Assembly (NCBI GenBank): GCA_902705825.1
Contig: CACSIL010000012.1
Span: forward strand, 78,793 to 142,792
Source of the DNA: Halioglobus japonicus
GTDB lineage: Bacteria; Pseudomonadota; Gammaproteobacteria; Pseudomonadales; Halieaceae
DNA: 64,000 nucleotides
Reading direction: 5' to 3'
Part shown: positions 36,985 through 46,811 of the stretch, one piece after another
Layout: every line of letters begins with the position of its first letter
Numbering within the stretch: position 1 is the stretch's first letter
Made by a program: the position numbers and the translations under genes
Notes under the pieces: generated by a model
Databases searched by the model: none
What the model was told of the DNA's origin: nothing
Seen by the model: only the letters and a program-made list of their open reading frames with translations

Positions 36985-37749
36985 TTATTTCTTTCTGAAC
37001 ACCGGCGGACGCTTTTCCATAAAGGCCGTTATTGCTTCGATGTTTTCCGCAGACCCTGCCTGGCGCGCCATTCCGGCCTGCTCTGCCTTGATCGCTGTAT
37101 CGATAGCGGGCAAATGATGCAGACGCAGTGAGCGTTTGATTTCCCGCAGTGAATTCACAGGCCACTGTGCAATTTCGCTCGCCTTGGCCAGCGCGTGCTC
37201 AAACAAATCTGAATCGGGCAACACGGCCGCTGCAATGCCAGCATTAAAGGCTTTGTCGGCGTCTATCCACTGCGCGGTGTAAAACAATTCGGCGGCGCGC
37301 TGCGCGCCGATATTTGCCTGCAACATATAGCTGCTGCCCCACTCGGGCACCAGGCCAAGGCTGGCAAAAGGCAAACGCATACGCAAGCTGTTGCCGACAT
37401 AGACAATATCCGCATGGAACAATACCGTGGCACCGCCACCGATAGCCACGCCCTGCGCCGCGGCAACTATTGGCTTATCGAACTCAACGACGGCGCGTGC
37501 AGCTGATTCAAATGGATGTTCCTCACCCTCTCCCACATCGCCGAAACTTGCCAGGTCCACACCGGAACAAAAGTTCTCGCCAGCGCCGCACAGCAACAGG
37601 CATACCACATCATCATCCTCTGCTGCGGCTCGAAACGTCTCGCGCAGGTCTACCCACATCTGCGTGTTAATCGCGTTCTTTTTCTCGGGGCGATTAAAAG
37701 TAACGACGAGCACGCCGTCGCGGTTGTCGGTAGTTACAAGGTCAGTCAT
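36985..37749 (-). CDS. Enoyl-CoA hydratase/isomerase family protein
   Basis: 254 residues of the crotonase superfamily. The first oxyanion segment is ENFCSGVDLASFG, the second QGVAIGGGATVLFHAD. The segment LPFASLGLVPEWGSSYML places a Glu where delta3-delta2-enoyl-CoA isomerases (ECI/PECI) keep their only catalytic acid, so isomerisation of an unsaturated acyl-CoA is as likely as hydration. It is the last gene of the sterol-module-like operon, 16 bp after a nitroreductase. Substrate uncertain. Confidence 0.87.
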   Translation of the reverse strand: MTDLVTTDNRDGVLVVTFNRPEKKNAINTQMWVDLRETFRAAAEDDDVVCLLLCGAGENFCSGVDLASFGDVGEGEEHPFESAARAVVEFDKPIVAAAQGVAIGGGATVLFHADIVYVGNSLRMRLPFASLGLVPEWGSSYMLQANIGAQRAAELFYTAQWIDADKAFNAGIAAAVLPDSDLFEHALAKASEIAQWPVNSLREIKRSLRLHHLPAIDTAIKAEQAGMARQAGSAENIEAITAFMEKRPPVFRKK

Positions 37750-37765
37750 GTGAGTGCCTGTGGAT

Positions 37766-38452
37766 TCAGGAATGGAAGGCTACAGAGTCCGCCACGCTGG
37801 CGCGATCGGTAACGCATGCGTTGACAGGATCATCGGGATTCGGATAGCCGAAGGACAAGCCAAACAACAGCTTATTGTTTTCCGCGATACCCAGTTGTTC
37901 GCGCACGAAATCAGCTTGAAAACCCAGAGCCGTCTGCGGGCAGCTGCCGAGCCCGTGGGCAGTGAGTGTCAGCATCAGGGTCTGGGCGTACATACCCAGA
38001 TCCGCCGCCTCGCGCAGACCAAACGGCTCGGGCAAGAAGAGGAAGGCGACATGCGGTGCATCGAAGAAAGTGAAATTGCGCATAAACTGCTCATTGCGCC
38101 GCGCTTTGTCCTCGCGGGCAATACCTGCGGCATCGTACAGCGATTGCGCAGCGCCGTACTGGCGCTCTTTGTAGACCCCCTCATAGACGCCGTCATAGGG
38201 GAAATCCATGCTGATATTGCCCGCCATGAAACGCTCAGGCATCGCCGCACGCAGCGTTTCCAGTTTTTCACCGGACACCACATGCACCACCCAGGGTTGG
38301 CTATTACAGTTGCTGGGCGCGCGCTGTGCCACAGAGAATAGTCTGTTCAGCGTTTCCTCGTCCACCCGCTGCGGCAGGAAAGCACGCAGTGAACGGCGGG
38401 AGGCGACAATTTCATCAAACACGTCAGCTTGCTTGGGCATGGGTAAACTCAT
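37766..38452 (-). CDS. Nitroreductase-family flavoprotein
   Basis: 228 residues. VASRRSLRAFLPQRVDEETL is the FMN phosphate-binding start. RAPSNCNSQPWVVHVVSG is the flavin-contact motif, and LTAHGLGSCPQTALG the second conserved block. Members reduce nitro compounds, quinones or alpha,beta-unsaturated carbonyls. It lies between two crotonase genes in the operon, which hints at a reductase step on a CoA thioester or steroid-like intermediate; inference only. Confidence 0.9.
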   Translation of the reverse strand: MSLPMPKQADVFDEIVASRRSLRAFLPQRVDEETLNRLFSVAQRAPSNCNSQPWVVHVVSGEKLETLRAAMPERFMAGNISMDFPYDGVYEGVYKERQYGAAQSLYDAAGIAREDKARRNEQFMRNFTFFDAPHVAFLFLPEPFGLREAADLGMYAQTLMLTLTAHGLGSCPQTALGFQADFVREQLGIAENNKLLFGLSFGYPNPDDPVNACVTDRASVADSVAFHS

Positions 38453-38536
38453 GTTGTAAACAGGACGGGTAGCCTAACAAAAATCCGCTTGTTTTTGCGC
38501 TTCAATTTGGCAGCAGAGGCTGACACGTTATGGCGT

Positions 38537-39355
38537 CTACTCGCCGGTAAAATTGGCTTTGCGTTTTTCCTTGAACGCGCGCATACCCTCTTTCGCATCA
38601 GCCGAAGCAAACACCGGGTTGGCCAACTCGTCTGAAAGCAGCATGGCATCCGCCTCTTTCACATCCGTCTGGATTTCACGGAGCGATCGGGTAATAGCCT
38701 TCAGTGCCAGTGGTCCAGTTTCACAAATCTGGGCGGCGATTTCTTTCGCCCGGGCCAGCGTCTGACCCTTGGGTACGACATGATTCACCAGGCCCCAATC
38801 GAGCGCCTCCTGCGCCGTGACATGACGCCCCAGCAACAGTATTTCGGCAGCGAGACAGTACGGGATTTGACGCGGCAAACGAATACTGGAACCCGCCATC
38901 GGGTAGAGGCCGCGTGCAACTTCGGTAACACCGAAGGTGGCGTCTTCAGCGGCAACACGAATATCGGTACCGGCCAGAATTTCGGTACCACCGGCCAGTG
39001 CATAGCCCTCTACTGCGAGAATCAGCGGCTTGTTGGGACGGTTATCACGCAGCAGGGCCTGCCAGTGTACATTCGGGACTTTGCCCATGACTTCCATAAA
39101 CTCGCCGGTGGAACGTTGATCACCGTCGGCACCGGCTTTGAGATCCATCCCTGCGGAGAAGGTGTCGCCATTGGCTGTGAGTATGGCGCACATCAGGCTA
39201 TCGTCCTCGTCGAGACGGCGCCACGCTTTGTACATACCCAATAGCATTTCGGGGCTGAAGGCGTTTTTGGCCTCGGGGCGGTTGAGGGTGACGATGAGTA
39301 CTTTGCCCTCTTGTTCTACGGTGCAGTTCTTGGTGCTGATATCGAGTTCTGGCAT
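38537..39355 (-). CDS. Enoyl-CoA hydratase, EchA19-like
   Basis: 272 residues from ATG 39355 (AAAGGT upstream); an in-frame extension to 39427 is not credible. Crotonase segments are DTFSAGMDLKAGADG and EGYALAGGTEILAGTDIRV. VTEVARGLYPMAGSSIRLPRQIP and ADAKEGMRAFKEKRKANF closely recall mycobacterial EchA19, a hydratase of steroid side-chain enoyl-CoA located beside fadD19. The adjacent upstream gene here is likewise FadD19-like. The similarity is from memory of the family; an alignment was not run. A 336-bp gap with two large palindromes separates it from that gene. Confidence 0.85.
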   Translation of the reverse strand: MPELDISTKNCTVEQEGKVLIVTLNRPEAKNAFSPEMLLGMYKAWRRLDEDDSLMCAILTANGDTFSAGMDLKAGADGDQRSTGEFMEVMGKVPNVHWQALLRDNRPNKPLILAVEGYALAGGTEILAGTDIRVAAEDATFGVTEVARGLYPMAGSSIRLPRQIPYCLAAEILLLGRHVTAQEALDWGLVNHVVPKGQTLARAKEIAAQICETGPLALKAITRSLREIQTDVKEADAMLLSDELANPVFASADAKEGMRAFKEKRKANFTGE

Positions 39356-39458
39356 GGTTTCTACCTTTTTGCTAATGGTGTTTGTGTGTCTGGGTTTGTG
39401 GCGCTGTCGTTTGTTGGTTGGCGTCACTGTAATTTATTGGTTGGTATCGCTGTAGGTC

Positions 39459-39534
39459 GGAGCTGGTTGGGTGAGGCCCCCGCTCCTCAAAGGGCTGAGA
39501 TATTCGTCGCGGGGGCCCTTACCCAACCTGCTCC
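39459..39534. repeat. Palindromic hairpin element A
   Basis: Arms 39459-39483 and 39509-39534 are inverted repeats with two mismatches and one 1-nt indel, including GGTTGGGT and CCCCCGC. The 25-nt loop contains AAGGGCTGAGATA (plus orientation). It lies in the untranslated gap between the fadD-like and echA19-like genes. It is too large for a simple terminator and has no U-tract. The rest of the gap, 39356-39458, holds only the ribosome site of the hydratase and T/G-rich sequence. Confidence 0.75.
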
Positions 39535-39577
39535 TGGCGTCCTGCGTTATTCACTTTTTCGAATCTCGCTGATGCGT

Positions 39578-39678
39578 GGGTTTGTTAGCGGTGGCGCGCA
39601 GGGCATGCCTCACAGGGTGAGTATCTCAGCCCTTCGAACCCAGTGAGGCATGCCCTGCGCGCCACCGCTTACGAACCC
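39578..39678. repeat. Palindromic hairpin element B
   Basis: Arms 39578-39613 and 39643-39678 match at 34 of 36 positions, with a perfect 27-bp inner part including GGTGGCGCGCAGGGCATGCC. The 29-nt loop carries TATCTCAGCCCTT, the reverse complement of the core in element A's loop. It ends 13 bp before the stop of the fadD-like gene. Stem B has no similarity to stem A. Confidence 0.8.
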
Positions 39679-39691
39679 GAACCGCGGAACA

Positions 39692-41320
39692 TCACTCGAC
39701 CTTATGCGTTCCCGCCAAGGCGATCTCCAGCGCTTTCGGATAGGCCGGCTTGCCACTGGGCGCGCGCGGCACGTCATCGACTACATGTAATTCACGCGGC
39801 ACTTTGTAACCGGCAATGTGTTGGCGCACGTGCTCCTGTATGCCACTGAGCGTCAGCTTTGCATCACCGCGTGGTGATACGACTGCGGTTACGCGACTGC
39901 CAAAGCGTTCGTCGGGCGTTGCCACTACCAGACAATCGAAAATTTCCGGGTTGGCTTTCAGCGCCTGCTCTACTTCTTCCGGGAAAATTTTCTCTCCACC
40001 GGAATTGATGCAGTTGGAGCCACGGCCGTATACGGTAATGGTGTCATCGTCTTCGAGGCGCGCTTCATCACCCAGCAGTAACCACGGCTTGCCATCGACA
40101 CTGACGATGGTTTTGGCTGTTTTCACCGGATCGTTGTAATAGCCCACAGGGATGTGCCCGCTGCGCGCAAAGATACCCATCTCACCGCGCTCCACATGGC
40201 GATTGGCCTCGCCTTCGATATCGGTGATAACCGACATGAATTCGCTCTTGGTGATATTGCCAAGGCCCTGGCCTTTTTTGCCGCCGCCGTCAAAGCCCAT
40301 GTTGCCGCTCTCGGAAGAGCCGAAGGAATTGGAGATAAAGACATTGGGGAAATTCTGGCGGAAGGCCTCCTGCTTGCTTTCCGAGAACACCGCACCGCCT
40401 GAACCAATATTGAAAACGGAACTTAGATCCCAGCGATCGGGATTGGATTCCAGAGCATCCAGTAATGGCACCGCCATGGCATCGCCAACGATGGAAATAG
40501 AGTTCACCTTCTCCTTTTCGACGATATCCCATACGTCTTCGCCGATCAGCGAACGACCGGGGTTCAGCACCACAGAATTACCAGCCAGCAACTGGATACA
40601 GGCATACCACCAGCAGGCGCCGTGCATCAGTGGTGCCAGCGCCATACCGACGATGGCAAAGTCACCCACGCGCCCGGCAATCTGCTCCGGATCCGTGATA
40701 GCACCGTCCGGATGGAACCAGCCTCCCCCGCCCATTGCAGCGAAGAATACGGCCTTGTGCGGCCACATGACGCCCTTGGGCATACCTGTCGTGCCGCCGG
40801 TATAGAGAATGAACAGATCTTCATCCGAGCGCTCACCGAAATCGCGCTTGTCACTCTGGCCCTCCATGGACGTTTCGTATTCCACGGAACCGATCACGGC
40901 AGGATCACAGCCGGAGTCATCCTTAACATAGATAAACGTTTTAAGATCGGGCGCAGATTTACGCACTTCGTCAATGTGCGGGGTAAACTCCTGATTGTGA
41001 ATACAGGCGACCATGTCTGCGTTGTCGAAGATGTACAGCAGTTCATCCTGTACATAGCGGTAGTTGACGTTAATCGGCACTGCGCGAATTTTGAAACAGG
41101 CCAGCATGCCCTCAAGGTATTCGTTGCAGTTGTAGAGATACAAGCCGACATGATCGCCGGCTTTTACGCCCTGTTCCATCAGGTAGTGTGCCAGTTTGTT
41201 AGCACGCTGCTCCAACTCCGCGTACGAAGCTCGCTGCGTGCCACATACCAGTGCACTGCGTGTGGGTACCTTATCCGCCACCATTTCATACAGATCGGCG
41301 ATATTGTAATGCTTGGCCAT
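39692..41320 (-). CDS. AMP-forming acyl-CoA synthetase, FadD19-like
   Basis: 542 residues from ATG 41320 (GGAGAA upstream); longer starts to 41383 are unlikely. Motifs: P-loop YTGGTTGMPKGVMW, the adenylate motif GSSESG, GDEARLEDDDTITVYGR and C-terminal PSGKPAYPKA. The segments NIADLYEMVADKVP, VNVNYRYVQDELLYIFDNADMV and KRDFGERSDEDLFILYTGG strongly recall FadD19, the steroid-acid CoA ligase of actinobacteria needed for C-24-branched sterols. It would activate a carboxylated side chain. It is followed by an EchA19-like and preceded by Ltp3/4-like genes. Specificity is inferred from family resemblance and context. Confidence 0.87.
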   Translation of the reverse strand: MAKHYNIADLYEMVADKVPTRSALVCGTQRASYAELEQRANKLAHYLMEQGVKAGDHVGLYLYNCNEYLEGMLACFKIRAVPINVNYRYVQDELLYIFDNADMVACIHNQEFTPHIDEVRKSAPDLKTFIYVKDDSGCDPAVIGSVEYETSMEGQSDKRDFGERSDEDLFILYTGGTTGMPKGVMWPHKAVFFAAMGGGGWFHPDGAITDPEQIAGRVGDFAIVGMALAPLMHGACWWYACIQLLAGNSVVLNPGRSLIGEDVWDIVEKEKVNSISIVGDAMAVPLLDALESNPDRWDLSSVFNIGSGGAVFSESKQEAFRQNFPNVFISNSFGSSESGNMGFDGGGKKGQGLGNITKSEFMSVITDIEGEANRHVERGEMGIFARSGHIPVGYYNDPVKTAKTIVSVDGKPWLLLGDEARLEDDDTITVYGRGSNCINSGGEKIFPEEVEQALKANPEIFDCLVVATPDERFGSRVTAVVSPRGDAKLTLSGIQEHVRQHIAGYKVPRELHVVDDVPRAPSGKPAYPKALEIALAGTHKVE

Positions 41321-41355
41321 TGCTCGTGTTCTCCGTTGTCCTGAGTGTAACGCGG

Positions 41356-42519
41356 TTACGATTTCTGCGAACCGACGACCCACATCGAGAAGAACTGCGC
41401 ACCACCACCATAAGCGTGGCCGAGTGCCAGTTTCGCGCCTTCAACCTGATGTGCACCGGCGTCGCCGCGCACCTGTCTGGCTGCCTCGGCAAAACGGATC
41501 ATGCCCGAGGCACCGATAGGATTGGAAGACAGTACACCACCGGAACAGTTCCAGGGAATATCACCGCCCTCATCCAGAGAGGTCGCCCCTTCCATGGTGA
41601 GCTTCCAGCCTTCACCCTCGGGTGCAAAACCGAGATTTTCCAGCCACATGGGTTCGTACCAGCTGAACGGCACGTATACCTCGGCGCAGTCAAAATCCCG
41701 GCGCGGATCTGTGACACCCGCCTGTTTGTACACATCGGCGGCGCAATCGCGGCCCGCCTGCGGGTTCACCATTTCACGACCGGCGTACATGGTCGGCTCC
41801 GAGCGCATCGCAACACCGCGAATCCAGGCCGGTGGCTTGGGAGACTTCTCCGCCAGTTCCTCATTGGCAATAACCATCGCACAGGCGCCGTCCGACGAGG
41901 GGCATGACTCCAGAAAGCGGATCGGGTCCCACAACATGAAAGACTCTTCCACTTCTTTCATGGTGATATCGGGCTTCTGCAAATGTGCCAGCGGGTTGCG
42001 CGCACCGTGCAGGCGATCTTTCATGGCCACCTTGATACCCACGTTATAAGGTGCGTTAGAACGGCGCATATACTCGCGGATAATAGGTGCAAAGTAGCCG
42101 CCAGCACCGGCGTTCAGGTGGGTGGAAAACGGCTGTGCATTGGACAGCGCCCACATGGCATTGGATTCAGACTGCTTCTCAAAAGCCACTGTCAGCACCC
42201 GTTTAAAGGTGCCGCTTTGCACATGTGATGCCGCCACCAGTGCTGTCGACCCGCCCACGGAGCCAGCCGTGTGCACGCGCAGCATCGGCTTGCCATTACA
42301 ACCGAGCGCATCGGTTAGATACGCCTCGGGCATAACAACACCCTCGAACATATCTGGCGCTTTGCCGATAATTACCGCATCGATATCGTCCCAGGTGAGG
42401 TCTGCATCCTGCAGCGCTTTCAGTGCCGCTTCACGCACCAATCCGGCGATTGAAACGTCGGTTCGTTTGGTCATGTACTTGGTCTGGCCAATGCCGACCA
42501 CTGCTGCCAAATTAGCCAT
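41356..42519 (-). CDS. Thiolase-fold protein without nucleophilic Cys (Ltp-like, putative aldolase)
   Basis: 387 residues of the thiolase/SCP-x (lipid-transfer) superfamily, beginning LAAVVGIGQTKY. The position of the thiolase nucleophile reads RVHTAGSVGGSTALVA (residues 81-96) with no cysteine. The C-terminal catalytic blocks are SSNPIGASGM instead of GHPxGASG, and LGHAYGGGAQ without Cys. It is therefore unlikely to perform thiolysis. Relatives Ltp2-4 pair with DUF35 proteins and act as retro-aldolases in sterol side-chain removal. Its start overlaps the stop of the previous thiolase-like gene by one base (TAATG). Confidence 0.88.
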   Translation of the reverse strand: MANLAAVVGIGQTKYMTKRTDVSIAGLVREAALKALQDADLTWDDIDAVIIGKAPDMFEGVVMPEAYLTDALGCNGKPMLRVHTAGSVGGSTALVAASHVQSGTFKRVLTVAFEKQSESNAMWALSNAQPFSTHLNAGAGGYFAPIIREYMRRSNAPYNVGIKVAMKDRLHGARNPLAHLQKPDITMKEVEESFMLWDPIRFLESCPSSDGACAMVIANEELAEKSPKPPAWIRGVAMRSEPTMYAGREMVNPQAGRDCAADVYKQAGVTDPRRDFDCAEVYVPFSWYEPMWLENLGFAPEGEGWKLTMEGATSLDEGGDIPWNCSGGVLSSNPIGASGMIRFAEAARQVRGDAGAHQVEGAKLALGHAYGGGAQFFSMWVVGSQKS

Positions 42520-43586
42520 TATGCGTTCTCCCCTTTCTCTAGAACCGTTACCAGATTGTGCTGCAGGCAGGGCCCTGAAGTCGCGTGGGCGATACCCCGT
42601 TGCGCTTCTCCTTTCACAATACGGTTAAATACTTCACCGATACGCGACAGGCCGGACGCCATCATCAGGTTGCCAGCCAATACACCCCCGCTGGGGTTGA
42701 CCTGTGTTTCCTTATCCAGGCCCAGAGCCCTGGTCAGAATGAGTTCCTGGTGGCTGAATGGCGCATAGAGCTCGGCCACATCCACCTTGCCTGCGTTCAT
42801 GCCGGCGTGATTGGCCGCCATACGAGTCGATACGGAATCTGTCAGGTCACGCATGCCAAGATTGTGAGTCTCGATACAGTGATCGATACCGCTAATAACA
42901 ACATAAGGCAGGCCCCATGCTTTGGCCTGATCTACAGTGGCGATAATCATCGCACTGGCACCGTCGGATATCGGGCTGCAATCTGCTTTGCGCAAAGGCG
43001 ACAGGAAAGTCTCCTCTGCAAGGACATCTTCAACCGAGATATCGCCAGACAATTGGGCATGCGGGTTGTTCATCGCATTTCGTCGTGAACGCGAAACCAC
43101 TTCTGCCATATCACGCTCCGTGATAAGGCCCTTATCCAGCATCAAACGAGCCTGCAGCGCAGCCAGCGAAATGCTGTCTACCCACAGCGGCGCCAGATAA
43201 TACGGATCCAACTGTTGCGATAACACCGTGGGCAGATCGCCCGGCGACGATTTGCCAAAACCGTATATCAATGCGGAGTCCGCATGCCCCATGCGAATCT
43301 TCAGCATGGATTCATACAGAGCCCAGGCTGCATCCATCTCGACATGAGACTCCTTGATCGGCGGCACCGCGCCCAGCGCGTCAACACCGGAAACAAAGGC
43401 AAAGGCTGCGCCCTGCAGGTAGTCGCAGCTGCCGGAGCAGACAAAATCGACATCCTGTGCGCTGTTCAGCCCGGCCTGTTCAAAGGTACGCGCCAGCACT
43501 GGCATGATCAGCTCAACTTCGTTGACCGCACCGGCGTCTGAGACACTGTCACTTTGCTGGTAGGCTACTATTGCAATATCTTTCAT
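42519..43586 (-). CDS. Thiolase-fold protein without nucleophilic Cys (second Ltp-like subunit)
   Basis: 355 residues. At the nucleophile position the sequence is PPIKESHVEMDAAWALY (residues 75-91), again without a thiolase Cys. C-terminal blocks are NPSGGVLAGNLMMASGL and ATSGPCLQHNLV. It is shorter than standard thiolases. The gene follows the Zn-ribbon DUF35 gene by 3 bp and overlaps the next Ltp-like gene, so the products are expected in near-equal amounts. Together with the DUF35 proteins they probably form a hetero-oligomer, by analogy to Ltp2-ChsH2. Confidence 0.87.
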   Translation of the reverse strand: MKDIAIVAYQQSDSVSDAGAVNEVELIMPVLARTFEQAGLNSAQDVDFVCSGSCDYLQGAAFAFVSGVDALGAVPPIKESHVEMDAAWALYESMLKIRMGHADSALIYGFGKSSPGDLPTVLSQQLDPYYLAPLWVDSISLAALQARLMLDKGLITERDMAEVVSRSRRNAMNNPHAQLSGDISVEDVLAEETFLSPLRKADCSPISDGASAMIIATVDQAKAWGLPYVVISGIDHCIETHNLGMRDLTDSVSTRMAANHAGMNAGKVDVAELYAPFSHQELILTRALGLDKETQVNPSGGVLAGNLMMASGLSRIGEVFNRIVKGEAQRGIAHATSGPCLQHNLVTVLEKGENA

Positions 43587-43589
43587 AGC

Positions 43590-44105
43590 TCAGCCCTCCA
43601 AGCCAGTAACAGGTAACGTGCCAATCTTTTCTACCGGTACATCCGGTTCATCGATCGGTTTGAAGTAGCGTATGTTATTCATTGAGTAATCCCATTCGGA
43701 TTCAGGGTTCCACACGCCCTGCACGCGCTGACCAATATGAACGTCTTCATTCACACACTCACTGAGCAGGTGGATGAGAGAGATGTTGGAACCGTCCAGC
43801 ACCAGATTGGCGACCACAAACGGTGGCTCAATCGGGTTGCCCGGGATCGGGATAGAGACAATAGTGAATGACTCGACTGTGGCCTTATCAGACAGTTCTA
43901 CTTCCTCTTCGGTAGCGACCCCACACGATGCGCAGGAGCCGCGCGGTGGCACATACACCGCTGAACATTTCGGACAGCGCTGTCCTGTCAGTACGCCCTT
44001 TTTAAGCTGTGTGAGGTAGCGCGCGGGAGCCTTGCCCGCAGTGAAGTTGTATTTGAGGTAGACCGGCGCATTGATTACGGTGATTTCGTCCTGTTCATCG
44101 CTCAT
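43590..44105 (-). CDS. DUF35 OB-fold protein with zinc ribbon
   Basis: 171 residues from ATG 44105 (GGAGAG 6 nt upstream); an upstream in-frame start at 44135 overlaps the preceding gene and is less likely. The rubredoxin-like zinc ribbon is RCPKCSAVYVPPRGSCASCG with four cysteines in Cys-x2-Cys pairs. The OB fold follows (ATVESFTIVSIP ... PPFVVANLVLDGSNISLIHLL). DUF35 proteins bind acyl-CoA and partner with thiolase-fold enzymes. Here it precedes two such genes. Confidence 0.92.
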   Translation of the reverse strand: MSDEQDEITVINAPVYLKYNFTAGKAPARYLTQLKKGVLTGQRCPKCSAVYVPPRGSCASCGVATEEEVELSDKATVESFTIVSIPIPGNPIEPPFVVANLVLDGSNISLIHLLSECVNEDVHIGQRVQGVWNPESEWDYSMNNIRYFKPIDEPDVPVEKIGTLPVTGLEG

Positions 44106-44116
44106 AGTTTGCTCTC

Positions 44117-44563
44117 CTATACCAGTTCGAAGCATCGAATATCGGTGATAAAACCAATGGTTTCATCGGCCCACACGGCGCGTACACGCGCACCGGTGGC
44201 TATGTCACTTTCTGCAGCGGCTGCCACGCAGTGCACCATCGGCACATCGGCGCCATCGAGTTTGATCATTGCCCACGCAAACGGCACCTGCATCGGGTGC
44301 GATTCGCGGGGTTCCTTGACCCAGGCAAAGCTGACGATCTCGCCCTGCTCACCCACGTCAACGAACTCGCTGAGTTCCTCTGCGGTATCGGGGTCATACT
44401 CCATGGGTGGCACGATCACCCGGCTGTCACTGGCCTTGATGCCAACGATCTTGCGATTCTTGAGTGCAGTGAGAAAACGACCGATCACCGGACCGGTGGA
44501 GCGGGTATAGGTATAACCAAGTTCAAACGCCTGGTTGAGAGTTTCTGGTTGCGACACAGTCAC
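44117..44563 (-). CDS. DUF35-like OB-fold protein lacking zinc-ribbon cysteines
   Basis: 148 residues from GTG 44563; a GTG at 44557 has better spacing to GGAGGG and may be used. The OB-fold region GEIVSFAWVKEPRESHPMQVPFAWAMIKLDGADVPMVHCV is clear. In the place of the zinc ribbon stands LKNRKIVGIKASDSRVIVPP, without cysteines. It is the first gene of the operon. It is 11 bp from the zinc-ribbon paralogue; the pair may replace a single two-domain protein found elsewhere. Confidence 0.88.
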   Translation of the reverse strand: MTVSQPETLNQAFELGYTYTRSTGPVIGRFLTALKNRKIVGIKASDSRVIVPPMEYDPDTAEELSEFVDVGEQGEIVSFAWVKEPRESHPMQVPFAWAMIKLDGADVPMVHCVAAAAESDIATGARVRAVWADETIGFITDIRCFELV

Positions 44564-44646
44564 AGCCCTCCATGGTAGCGGTACAGGATTGAAGCATCAG
44601 TATCAGCGAGGCATCGCAGTCACTCAATGACGCAAAGGCTCATGTG

Positions 44647-44659
44647 GAAATGACATTTC
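44647..44659. promoter_or_regulatory. 13-bp inverted repeat between divergent operons
   Basis: GAAATGACATTTC is a perfect dyad around a central A. It lies in the 267-bp interval between the DUF35-thiolase-fadD operon and the extradiol dioxygenase, where a shared operator would be expected. The rest of 44564-44830 shows no gene or clear promoter hexamers. Confidence 0.35.
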
Positions 44660-44830
44660 AGATCAAATCGCAAAAGCGCGAACAGACCACGCCCTACTTA
44701 TCGCCATCAATCCAGCCCCAATTACAGATTAAGCGACGACAAAGGTTGATTTAGATGCACCGGCAACGGCAGAATGCCGATTCGCCTTTTTTTGGCAGCG
44801 ACACCCATCGACTATACGAGGAATACACCT

Positions 44831-45736
44831 ATGTCTGTCTCAGCTGTTGGATACTTGAGAATCGCATCAACCGACACGGCGGCCTGGATGGACTTTGGCA
44901 CAGGTGTACTGGGCCTGATGGATGCCCAGCGCGAGGATGATGCCGGTGCGCGCTTCCTGCGCATGGACGACCACCCTTTTCGCTTTATGATTGAACCCGC
45001 TGATGCCGACAAGCTGATTGCGACCGGCCTTGAGTTTCCCGATGAAGCAGCCTGGCGCTCGACCATCACTGCCTTGGAAAATGCCGGCCATAGCGTCGTA
45101 GCCGGGTCTGCAGAGGACGCACAGCGGCGCTGCGTGTCCGCCTTGTCCTCGGTGCAGGACCCTGCGGGCAATACCCTGGAACTCTACTGGGGCCGCAAGC
45201 TGGACTATGTACCGCTGGCCTCGCCGACCGGTGTAGAACGGTTCGTCACTACTTATCAGCAATCCGGTGATATGGGCTTCGGACACGCTGTATTGCCCGC
45301 ACCCAATGTCGAGGCGTGTTTCGATTTTTACACACAGCTTATCGGTACCGGTCTCACCGATACCCTGTACCCACCGGGTATGGACGGTGTGCAGATCAAA
45401 TTCATGCATGCCAATAATCCGCGGCAACACTCTGTCGCGCTGTTCAGTGGTCCGCACCCGGCGGGTATTGTCCATATGATGGTTGAGGTGCAGACACTGG
45501 ACGAGGTCGGCCGTGCCATGAAACGCGCCCAGCAGGCTGGCGTCCATTTTCTCGCCACGCTCGGCCGACACGTCAATGACAATATGTGCTCCATCTACAT
45601 ACTTGCGCCGGGTGGCATCGCCGTAGAGTACGGGTACGACGGTCTACTGATCGACTGGGAAAACTATGTGCCCACCGTCAGCGTCGAGGGCGACTTGTGG
45701 GGACATGAGTACAACTTTCCCGGAATGAACGATTAG
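44831..45736 (+). CDS. Type I extradiol ring-cleavage dioxygenase, HsaC/BphC-like
   Basis: 301 residues from ATG 44831 (GAGGAA upstream); the frame is open from 44774. Two vicinal-oxygen-chelate modules are present. Fe(II) ligands are visible: His in GFGHAVLPAP, His in GIVHMMVEV, Glu in GGIAVEYGYDG. The C-terminal run ATLGRHVNDNMCSIYILAPGG and LWGHEY closely recalls HsaC, which opens the catecholic A ring of seco-steroids, and BphC of biphenyl. It diverges from the sterol-module-like operon. The substrate is an aromatic catechol, possibly steroid-derived. Confidence 0.88.
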   Translation: MSVSAVGYLRIASTDTAAWMDFGTGVLGLMDAQREDDAGARFLRMDDHPFRFMIEPADADKLIATGLEFPDEAAWRSTITALENAGHSVVAGSAEDAQRRCVSALSSVQDPAGNTLELYWGRKLDYVPLASPTGVERFVTTYQQSGDMGFGHAVLPAPNVEACFDFYTQLIGTGLTDTLYPPGMDGVQIKFMHANNPRQHSVALFSGPHPAGIVHMMVEVQTLDEVGRAMKRAQQAGVHFLATLGRHVNDNMCSIYILAPGGIAVEYGYDGLLIDWENYVPTVSVEGDLWGHEYNFPGMND

Positions 45737-45770: not shown

Positions 45771-46811
45771 CTATAGCGCCGAGCGAATCGCGTCTACCGA
45801 GCCCAGCGTATCGAGGGCGCTATGCAGGCGCTCCATCGATGCCTTGAGGTAGTTGACTGGCTGCCACGCGTCGCCCATGGCCAGCGTCACAGCGGCGCCC
45901 ATCCAGACATACGCAGCATGCCACTGGTACTGCTGCCATAGCTCGGCTTCAGGTGGTGCGGACACTCCCAGCGAAAGAAGTTGTTGGCGATAGTATGCCA
46001 GCATGTCGCGGCCATACTGTTGTTGATCTTGCGGCGTCAGATTTCCCGCCAGAAAATAACCGACATCACGCATTGCCGGCCCACGGGCCACCATCGCCCA
46101 ATCCAGAAACCCCGGCTGATCTGCATCGTAGAAAAGGTTGCCGTCGTGAACATCTCCGTGTATCAGGGTAGGAGCGCCGCGCAGCCACAGCTGGTGGACG
46201 GCGTCCGTTTTAGCCAGGTATAGCTCACCCATCTCCGTGAATACCACAGGCATACTATCGCTGTACATCTGCAGTGCGCGGCCGATTAACTGCGCACCAA
46301 TTTCATGCTGCAACGGCGGCTGCACCCAGGCAAGATCAGACTCAAAACGCGGCGATTGCCAGTACTTGGCATGCAGACGCGCAAAGGCGGCCAGTATCTG
46401 ACGGATAAAATCCAGTGAGTACCGTGTACTGGCATTCTTGAAGGTACATCCGCTGTCTACAAGGTTCTCCAGCAGCATAATGTAGGCTTCACCGGCCTCA
46501 TCGCTGGCAGCATAAAAACAGCGCGGCACACGTACCGGCATTTCAGCGGCAAGGCTGTGATAAAACATCGCCTCGCGCCGCCCCATCCCGCTGGACGTGA
46601 CAAACTGCCGCTGCAGTTCATCTGTCGGCGGCAGCTTCACGAAAAGCCGCTGGGGTTGGCCGGCGTCTTCACCATAATCAAGTTCAAGCAGTGCCCGCCC
46701 CGTCGTGCCGGCATGGGCATCGACCACGGCGAACTTCATCACCGGCACGTGCAGTACCTCTGACAGCCAATCGCAGGACAGACTTCTCAAATCGGAGGGA
46801 ATCACCGGCAC
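45771..46811 (-). CDS. Aminoglycoside phosphotransferase/CHK-family kinase
   Basis: 346 residues from GTG 46811 with AGAGG upstream. The catalytic Brenner motif is LIHGDVHDGNLFYD, followed by the Mg-binding LDWAMVARGPAMRDVG. The ATP-binding Lys is in RLFVKLPP. Such kinases phosphorylate small hydroxylated molecules, including choline-like alcohols, ecdysteroids (EcKinase relatives) or antibiotics. Proximity to steroid-like genes makes a hydroxy-steroid substrate an idea, not a conclusion. It converges with the dioxygenase gene. Confidence 0.87.
   Translation of the reverse strand: MPVIPSDLRSLSCDWLSEVLHVPVMKFAVVDAHAGTTGRALLELDYGEDAGQPQRLFVKLPPTDELQRQFVTSSGMGRREAMFYHSLAAEMPVRVPRCFYAASDEAGEAYIMLLENLVDSGCTFKNASTRYSLDFIRQILAAFARLHAKYWQSPRFESDLAWVQPPLQHEIGAQLIGRALQMYSDSMPVVFTEMGELYLAKTDAVHQLWLRGAPTLIHGDVHDGNLFYDADQPGFLDWAMVARGPAMRDVGYFLAGNLTPQDQQQYGRDMLAYYRQQLLSLGVSAPPEAELWQQYQWHAAYVWMGAAVTLAMGDAWQPVNYLKASMERLHSALDTLGSVDAIRSAL

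Follow-up and report, generated by a model that had tools for sequence, protein, structure and literature searches.

A candidate sterol side-chain operon with two Ltp-type thiolase-fold proteins in Halioglobus japonicus and related Gammaproteobacteria

Phytoplankton sterols are largely alkylated at C-24, and bacterial routes for C-24-alkylated sterols are known mainly from actinobacteria. An operon in the gammaproteobacterium Halioglobus japonicus raises the question of whether such side chains might also be handled outside that group. The operon lies in a 64,000-nucleotide stretch of DNA (the window; contig CACSIL010000012.1, positions 78,793 to 142,792 of the forward strand), which is part of an assembly of 5.05 Mb in 53 contigs that is 93% complete (GCA_902705825.1). 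It consists of eight co-directional genes on the minus strand (36985-44563), reading from the first of two DUF35 genes (DUF35a) to a second crotonase gene, with an extradiol dioxygenase gene divergent from it. A preliminary description made from the sequence alone had taken these nine genes, all found again in place when the window was re-read, for an actinobacterial-type module acting on C-24-branched sterol side chains; we find this interpretation partly supported, its core being right and its framing partly wrong. The operon probably carries out the initial round of sterol side-chain degradation, in which the branch is dealt with. A steroid role of the module is well supported; specificity for the C-24 branch would be carried over, by analogy, from actinobacterial genetics, which include one contrary report.

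We judged NCBIfam profile scores (in bits, with the curated cut-off following in brackets) for protein families and used Pfam for domains. Four proteins scored over their NCBIfam cut-offs: the 387-amino-acid (aa) thiolase-fold protein with PRK08313 (673; 514), the 355-aa thiolase-fold protein with PRK07937 (483; 419), the ligase with PRK07798 (647; 543), and the hydratase, the top scorer among the 31 matches in the genome, with PRK07799 (335; 316). Pfam supported the DUF35, nitroreductase, two crotonase and BphC/Glyoxalase assignments, in line with the families named from motifs in the preliminary description. The window thus shares PRK07798, PRK07799, PRK07937, PRK08313 and DUF35 with mycobacterial Rv3515c-Rv3516 and Rv3521-Rv3523, whose membership in these PRK families we assume from gene order, and with their Rhodococcus counterpart (fadD19, echA19, DUF35, ltp4, ltp3). 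Since loci in Actinomycetes have the order DUF35, 355-aa type, 387-aa type, as in the window, we placed the 355-aa protein at the Ltp4 position and the 387-aa protein at the Ltp3 position. Mycobacterial ltp4 and ltp3 are reported as Rv3522 and Rv3523, beside the conserved hypothetical Rv3521 (PMC6429209); our names follow gene order. Relative to the mycobacterial and Rhodococcus modules, the window has DUF35 split in two and all genes co-directional in one run, adds a nitroreductase, an isomerase-like crotonase and the divergent HsaC-like gene, and has Ltp sequences that fall in a separate proteobacterial clade.

Table 1. Genes of the operon and the divergent gene beside it, in window coordinates. 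The start codons of DUF35b (44105), the FadD19-type ligase (41320), the EchA19-like hydratase (39355) and the HsaC-like dioxygenase (44831) were placed in this analysis.
Feature	Position	Strand	Basis
HsaC/BphC-like extradiol dioxygenase, divergent from operon	44831..45736	+	Pfam BphC/Glyoxalase, NCBIfam
DUF35a, ChsH2-type OB fold, no zinc ribbon hit	44117..44563	-	Pfam
DUF35b, ChsH2-type zinc ribbon and OB fold	43590..44105	-	Pfam
Ltp4-type thiolase-fold subunit, 355 aa	42519..43586	-	PRK07937; name from gene order
Ltp3-type thiolase-fold subunit, 387 aa	41356..42519	-	PRK08313; name from gene order
FadD19-type acyl-CoA ligase	39692..41320	-	PRK07798
EchA19-like enoyl-CoA hydratase	38537..39355	-	PRK07799
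Nitroreductase-family protein	37766..38452	-	Pfam
Second crotonase, isomerase-like	36985..37749	-	Pfam, NCBIfam

The active sites of the two thiolase-fold subunits were compared in alignments of the window and 37 chosen loci (n = 38 for each subunit). The nucleophilic Cys of SCP2-type thiolase and benzoylsuccinyl-CoA thiolase aligned with Gly86 in the Ltp3-type protein, and that of archaeal acetoacetyl-CoA thiolase with Glu83 in the Ltp4-type protein, both residues being present in 38/38 rows. The HDCF position reads YVPF in all 38 Ltp3-type proteins (Y282-V-P-F285 in the window) and mostly YAPF or HAPF in the Ltp4-type proteins, with His first in 24, Tyr in 13 and Cys in 1 of the 38 (YAPF, with Tyr274 first, in the window). 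The hallmarks of SCP2-type thiolases, nucleophilic Cys and HDCF, were found in neither subunit in these alignments. For Ltp2 and Sal, the catalytic base is described as the Tyr of YDHF or YDCY (PMC12329534). The Ltp3-type protein is without the Cys or His that known steroid aldolases carry two residues after this Tyr. Because the Tyr at the base position is kept and the thiolase nucleophile is lost, the Ltp3-type subunit fits a retro-aldolase, not a thiolase, and the pair of nucleophile-less thiolase-fold subunits suggests a heteromeric retro-aldolase. A heteromeric Ltp3-Ltp4 aldol-lyase has been proposed before (PMC6678751).

Like the Ltp2-ChsH2(DUF35) and Sal-Shy(DUF35) aldolases (PMC12329534), the window system pairs a thiolase fold with a DUF35 partner, has Tyr at the base position (in the Ltp3-type subunit) and has no thiolase nucleophile; unlike them, it has two different thiolase-fold genes instead of one, YVPF and [YH]APF where Ltp2 and Sal have YDHF or YDCY, and a hydratase of crotonase type that is separate from DUF35. 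With BbsAB, also reported in association with DUF35 (PMC12329534), and with SCP2-type thiolases it shares the fold (their best chains reached Z 46 to 50 against the Ltp3-type model), but the nucleophilic Cys is replaced by Gly86 or Glu83 and HDCF is not kept. AlphaFold models of both Ltp subunits have the thiolase fold (pLDDT 84.5 and 87.5). Among solved structures compared with the Ltp3-type model, the top thiolase reached Z 52.1, Ltp2 (6ok1) 45.9 and Sal (9myr) 44.8. This ranking does not single out the aldolases, and we discarded it as uninformative for choosing aldolase over thiolase.

In the mechanism that we propose, a CYP125-type P450 encoded elsewhere would oxidize C26 to the acid and the FadD19-type ligase would convert the acid to the 26-oyl-CoA, after which an acyl-CoA dehydrogenase, also encoded elsewhere, would introduce a C24-C25 double bond. 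The EchA19-like hydratase, which presumably keeps both catalytic Glu positions of crotonases (read by eye), would add water to this bond, turning a C-24-alkylated carbon into a tertiary alcohol. Such an alcohol cannot be oxidized to a ketone, and ordinary thiolysis is blocked. Because hydration at the branched carbon gives this tertiary alcohol, aldol cleavage would take the place of oxidation and thiolysis: the Ltp3-type and Ltp4-type subunits, assembled into a heteromeric complex on the two DUF35 proteins, would split the C-C bond in a retro-aldol reaction, for which the YVPF Tyr of the Ltp3-type subunit is the likely base. The nitroreductase and the isomerase-like crotonase might act on the double bonds of algal sterols, and the rest of the side chain and the rings would pass to cholesterol-type and 9,10-seco-type genes elsewhere in the genome. 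A more detailed picture, which we offer tentatively, is of a pseudo-symmetric heterotetrameric steroid aldolase of Ltp3/Ltp4 and paired DUF35 proteins. Its own catalytic set would consist of Tyr282 and Gly86 in one thiolase-fold subunit and of Glu83 and His/Tyr274 in its partner, dispensing both with the cysteines of thiolases and with the Cys/His found in Sal and Ltp2. In marine Gammaproteobacteria, a flavin reductase and an isomerase of enoyl-CoA would have been added to it, preparing unsaturated algal side chains.

The assignment to C-24 branches draws on actinobacteria, in which fadD19, ltp3 and ltp4 are reported to be required on C-24-branched sterols but dispensable on cholesterol: Rhodococcus fadD19, ltp3 and ltp4 mutants, as well as a Mycobacterium smegmatis fadD19 mutant, keep cholesterol degradation and lose that of branched sterols (PMC6273163). 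These phenotypes argue against the alternative of an operon for sterol side chains generally, including the straight C8 chain of the cholesterol type, in which the module has no special role at C-24 and the Ltp complex duplicates the work of FadA5-, Ltp2- or Sal-type enzymes. We regard this alternative as unlikely, although FadD19 is named in one review as the cholesterol ligase as well (PMC6678751) and induction of fadD19 and echA19 on cholesterol is reported for M. tuberculosis (PMC8196197). The same report describes a fadD19/echA19 double mutant that still grows on cholesterol and did not confirm cholesterol regulation of ltp3/ltp4 (PMC8196197). The H. japonicus genome, moreover, already has FadA5-, Ltp2- and ChsH1/ChsH2-type genes for straight chains, and the absence of the thiolase nucleophile from both Ltp subunits likewise counts against a general role.

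The steroid context that the preliminary description had assumed was borne out by a search of the assembly, which found CYP125-, KstD-, KshA-, HsaA-, HsaC- and HsaD-like genes in addition to the straight-chain types. One cluster (contig C1, 296-316 kb) encodes a CYP125-type P450, a FadA5-type thiolase (597; 515), an aldehyde dehydrogenase, a second FadD19-type ligase, a zinc alcohol dehydrogenase and a ChsH2-ChsH1-Ltp2-like trio, in which the Ltp2-type protein (636; 469) adjoins the ChsH2- and ChsH1-like genes; another FadA5-type thiolase scored 611 (515). The C1 P450 is 56% identical to a P450 on C45, which scored 333 bits to CYP125MRCA and 233 bits to M. tuberculosis CYP125. A third P450, at 408 kb of C12, was rejected as a CYP125, its best solved relatives being CYP199A4-like with CYP125MRCA lower, leaving the C45 protein as the CYP125-like one; the remaining P450s were set against one another and against the loci. 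We also noted, at 398-438 kb of C12 (L165-L166), a further cluster of thiolase-fold proteins (one with PRK07855 over its cut-off), DUF35, MaoC, an acyl-CoA dehydrogenase-like protein, a P450 and a BphC/HsaC-like gene.

For ring degradation, the assembly encodes KshA_C proteins, five of them clear and a sixth at the cut-off; one of the KshA_C proteins adjoins the KstD-like protein, and a carboxyltransferase gene adjoins a KshA-like gene on C52, with no tie to the side-chain step. The 17-23 kb region of C2 holds an HsaA-like gene (376; 450), an alpha/beta hydrolase, a 2-oxopent-4-enoate hydratase (397; 409), an acetaldehyde dehydrogenase and a 4-hydroxy-2-oxovalerate aldolase. The two HsaA-like scores in the assembly were 375 and 351 (450), HsaA being the best-fitting model. 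HsaA-, HsaC- and HsaD-like genes stand together on C53, all below cut-off. The genome-wide search gave three HsaC-like genes, none on C2; the C53 copy (307 bits) scored higher than the window copy, for which the HsaC model (247; 450) and the bphC model (248.5; 366) nearly tied, below both cut-offs. With these scores, HsaC-like is a fair label for the window dioxygenase and HsaC would be too firm a one.

Co-occurrence was examined across 293 genomes of the order, with an Ltp4-type protein (PRK07937 over cut-off) alone standing for the module; 45 of the 293 carry one. HsaA-like genes (E <= 1e-60) were found in 40 of these 45 genomes and in 39 of the 248 others (by genus, 15/18 against 23/100), FadA5-type thiolases over the curated cut-off in 27/45 against 8/248, and at least one of the two in 44/45 against 43/248; kinship among the genomes inflates p-values from such counts. 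Co-occurrence with HsaA-like genes is equally compatible with a general side-chain role and with a C-24-branch role. The combined 44/45 against 43/248 does argue against another alternative, which is that the operon degrades some other branched isoprenoid acyl-CoA (derived from phytol, hopanoids or carotenoids, for example) by the same aldolytic logic, the steroid link being incidental. An HsaC-like gene also stands beside the module in 13 of the 32 loci L061-L092, counted in the flanks at >=45% identity (several of these contigs end early, and 18/32 loci are >=19 kb long). In a ligase tree (a quick LG+G4 tree without mixture, long branches flagged, with six other H. japonicus ligases put in), the window ligase grouped with ligases beside actinobacterial modules, apart from those six, upholding the FadD19 assignment; 21 gammaproteobacterial rows and the two H. 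japonicus FadD19-type copies formed one group (support 96). The isoprenoid alternative is favored by some Ltp/DUF35-core loci that show no FadD19-type gene within the flanks covered and by module genomes that have no HsaA-like gene; on balance, we consider it quite improbable.

Several observations weigh against assigning the operon to the branch-handling round. Single ltp3 or ltp4 knock-outs of Mycolicibacterium neoaurum are reported still to make 4-HBC from phytosterols, only an atf1 knock-out having failed (PMC10398937), which speaks against a strict need for ltp3 or ltp4 on branched sterols in that organism and favors a general side-chain role. echA19 is described as non-essential in M. 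smegmatis (PMC6273163), and the window hydratase missed the EchA19 equivalog cut-off (332; 400). No gene of the operon encodes the carboxylase that has been postulated for the C28 branch. Neither form of the Ltp2/Sal motif (YDHF or YDCY) was found in either Ltp subunit among the 38 rows of each alignment, and the folds nearest to the Ltp3-type model are thiolases, not steroid aldolases. The window ligase is perhaps not the sole one used, the C1 copy scoring 652 (543). The KstD-like protein (591; 789) fits that model best and is below its curated cut-off, as are the HsaA-, HsaC- and HsaD-like proteins for theirs; just 1 of the 293 genomes passes the HsaA cut-off. Finally, 5 of the 45 module genomes (G017, G031, G051, G092, G120) have no HsaA-like gene at the threshold used, four of them carrying a FadA5-type thiolase.

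The framing of the operon as exceptional, an actinobacterial-type module in a gammaproteobacterium, did not hold: the module occurs widely in Halieaceae and Spongiibacteraceae. Among the best 80 of 579 loci from a scan of named genomes, carriers were Halioglobus, Haliea, Seongchinamella, Pseudohalioglobus and Kineobactrum in Halieaceae, Zhongshania and Spongiibacter in Spongiibacteraceae, as well as Pseudomaricurvus, Sterolibacterium metagenome-assembled genomes (MAGs) and SAR86 (the last two with the core of the module), Myxococcota, a Chloroflexi MAG and many Actinomycetota; the closest named relative among the matches listed was a Halioglobus MAG (94% identity in the 355-aa protein). The same gene set is syntenic across Halieaceae and, with changes, in Spongiibacteraceae, and because this synteny recurs, the arrangement is not chance. 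In a tree of both Ltp proteins concatenated (75 rows, quick method, SH-aLRT support, no outgroup, rooted at the midpoint for display, with flags on long rows and on rows of odd composition), all Gamma- and Betaproteobacteria rows, plus one MAG mislabelled Klebsiella, fell on one side of a branch with support 100, with Actinomycetota, Myxococcota, Chloroflexota and others on the other side. Within the best 80 of 579 loci, we rejected a recent import from actinobacteria for the Ltp pair on the basis of this branch, with which an old transfer in either direction is still compatible. Because the Ltp and ligase trees both separate the groups, the gammaproteobacterial module is, judged from these sequences, an established lineage, the unrooted Ltp tree leaving unreadable which side is older.

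Two further observations concern individual carriers. L091 (CAMAXE010000001.1), the MAG labelled Klebsiella pneumoniae, has the module core, and in the Ltp tree its proteins are placed next to SAR86 (support 93); the label looks wrong. In five of the six module genomes of genus g15 (L012, L013, L014, L016, L017), a TGA lies inside a PRK07937 match that reaches model position 352/353, probably a natural stop near the end. The Ltp/DUF35 core is kept up to the contig ends in the Sterolibacterium MAGs (L085, L086, L092), followed in L086 by an acyl-CoA ligase. A relative of these MAGs is described as an anaerobe growing on sitosterol, stigmasterol and ergosterol (PMC11061730). Its presence in these MAGs suggests that the core is tied to sterol side chains and not to one ring pathway.

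The two DUF35 genes are not an addition to the known module; they correspond to the two halves of one open reading frame in 30 of 73 scored rows, namely 21 of 24 Actinomycetes, 6 Spongiibacteraceae or Cellvibrionales and 3 others. DUF35a corresponds to the N-terminal half of the single, fused protein that most Actinomycetes have and that is also encoded in Spongiibacteraceae loci. The fused or split state changed at least six times on the Ltp tree, and such repeated change is an argument for both halves sitting in one complex. DUF35b of the window has the zinc motif C-x2-C-x10-C-x2-C. A C4 motif is absent from DUF35a in 80/80 of the best 80 loci; the zinc ribbon was rejected as a defining trait of DUF35b, all four Cys being present in just 38 of the same 80.

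The nitroreductase and the second crotonase do look like additions, as had been suggested. At >=45% identity, the flanks of the 32 loci L061-L092 contain a FadD19-type gene in 21 cases, an EchA19-like gene in 20, the nitroreductase in 20 and the second crotonase in 16. None of the 49 loci L093-L141 has the nitroreductase, the second crotonase or the HsaC-like gene at this level. At that threshold, the nitroreductase and isomerase-like crotonase are seen only in proteobacterial loci. HsaC-like genes of 38-39% identity occur in the flanks of five Actinomycetes loci (L101, L111, L119, L120, L137), and L115, L125 and L132 have crotonases that share 29-38% identity with the second crotonase. The second crotonase is without the first hydratase Glu and has a PExxSS motif that, read by eye, we take to resemble that of Delta3,Delta2-enoyl-CoA isomerases; the nearest solved relative of the nitroreductase is NfnB (2wzv, 182 bits). 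Spongiibacteraceae loci have an alpha-methylacyl-CoA racemase-like gene inserted after the EchA19-like gene (L072:15062-16201; also L076, L077 and L089), which is what 25-methyl-26-oyl-CoA chemistry would need; the L072 copy, the sole one compared with structures, scored 376 bits to solved racemases. We also observed an EcKL/APH-type kinase gene (ecdysteroid-kinase-like in Pfam) adjoining the module in the window (45771-46811, minus strand) and in 5 of the 32 loci L061-L092. The 25-hydroxysteroid kinase of Sterolibacterium is likewise described as a ~40-kDa 'phosphotransferase' (PMC8449060).

According to a 2016 survey, Proteobacteria showed neither Cyp125 orthologues nor evidence for 9,10-seco cholesterol catabolism (PMC4810484). 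In 2018, Halieaceae and Spongiibacteraceae were predicted to catabolize steroids and sponge isolates were found to do so, gammaproteobacterial isolates growing with cholesterol (PMC5790920), and cyp125-like genes were reported in SAR86 in 2024 (PMC11582366). Our searches of open-licence PMC papers brought up no description of the module in Gammaproteobacteria, of the split or fused DUF35 pair, of the added genes or of the Ltp residue pattern. The module is a candidate marker for branched-sterol use in marine groups of the Halieaceae/Spongiibacteraceae type, and the Ltp3/Ltp4 reaction could be studied in named isolates of Zhongshania, Spongiibacter, Seongchinamella and Kineobactrum, which carry it among the best 80 loci. 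Many marine relatives of Halioglobus share the module and, judged from what is known of soil actinobacteria, probably use it to cut the branched tails of plant and algal sterols.

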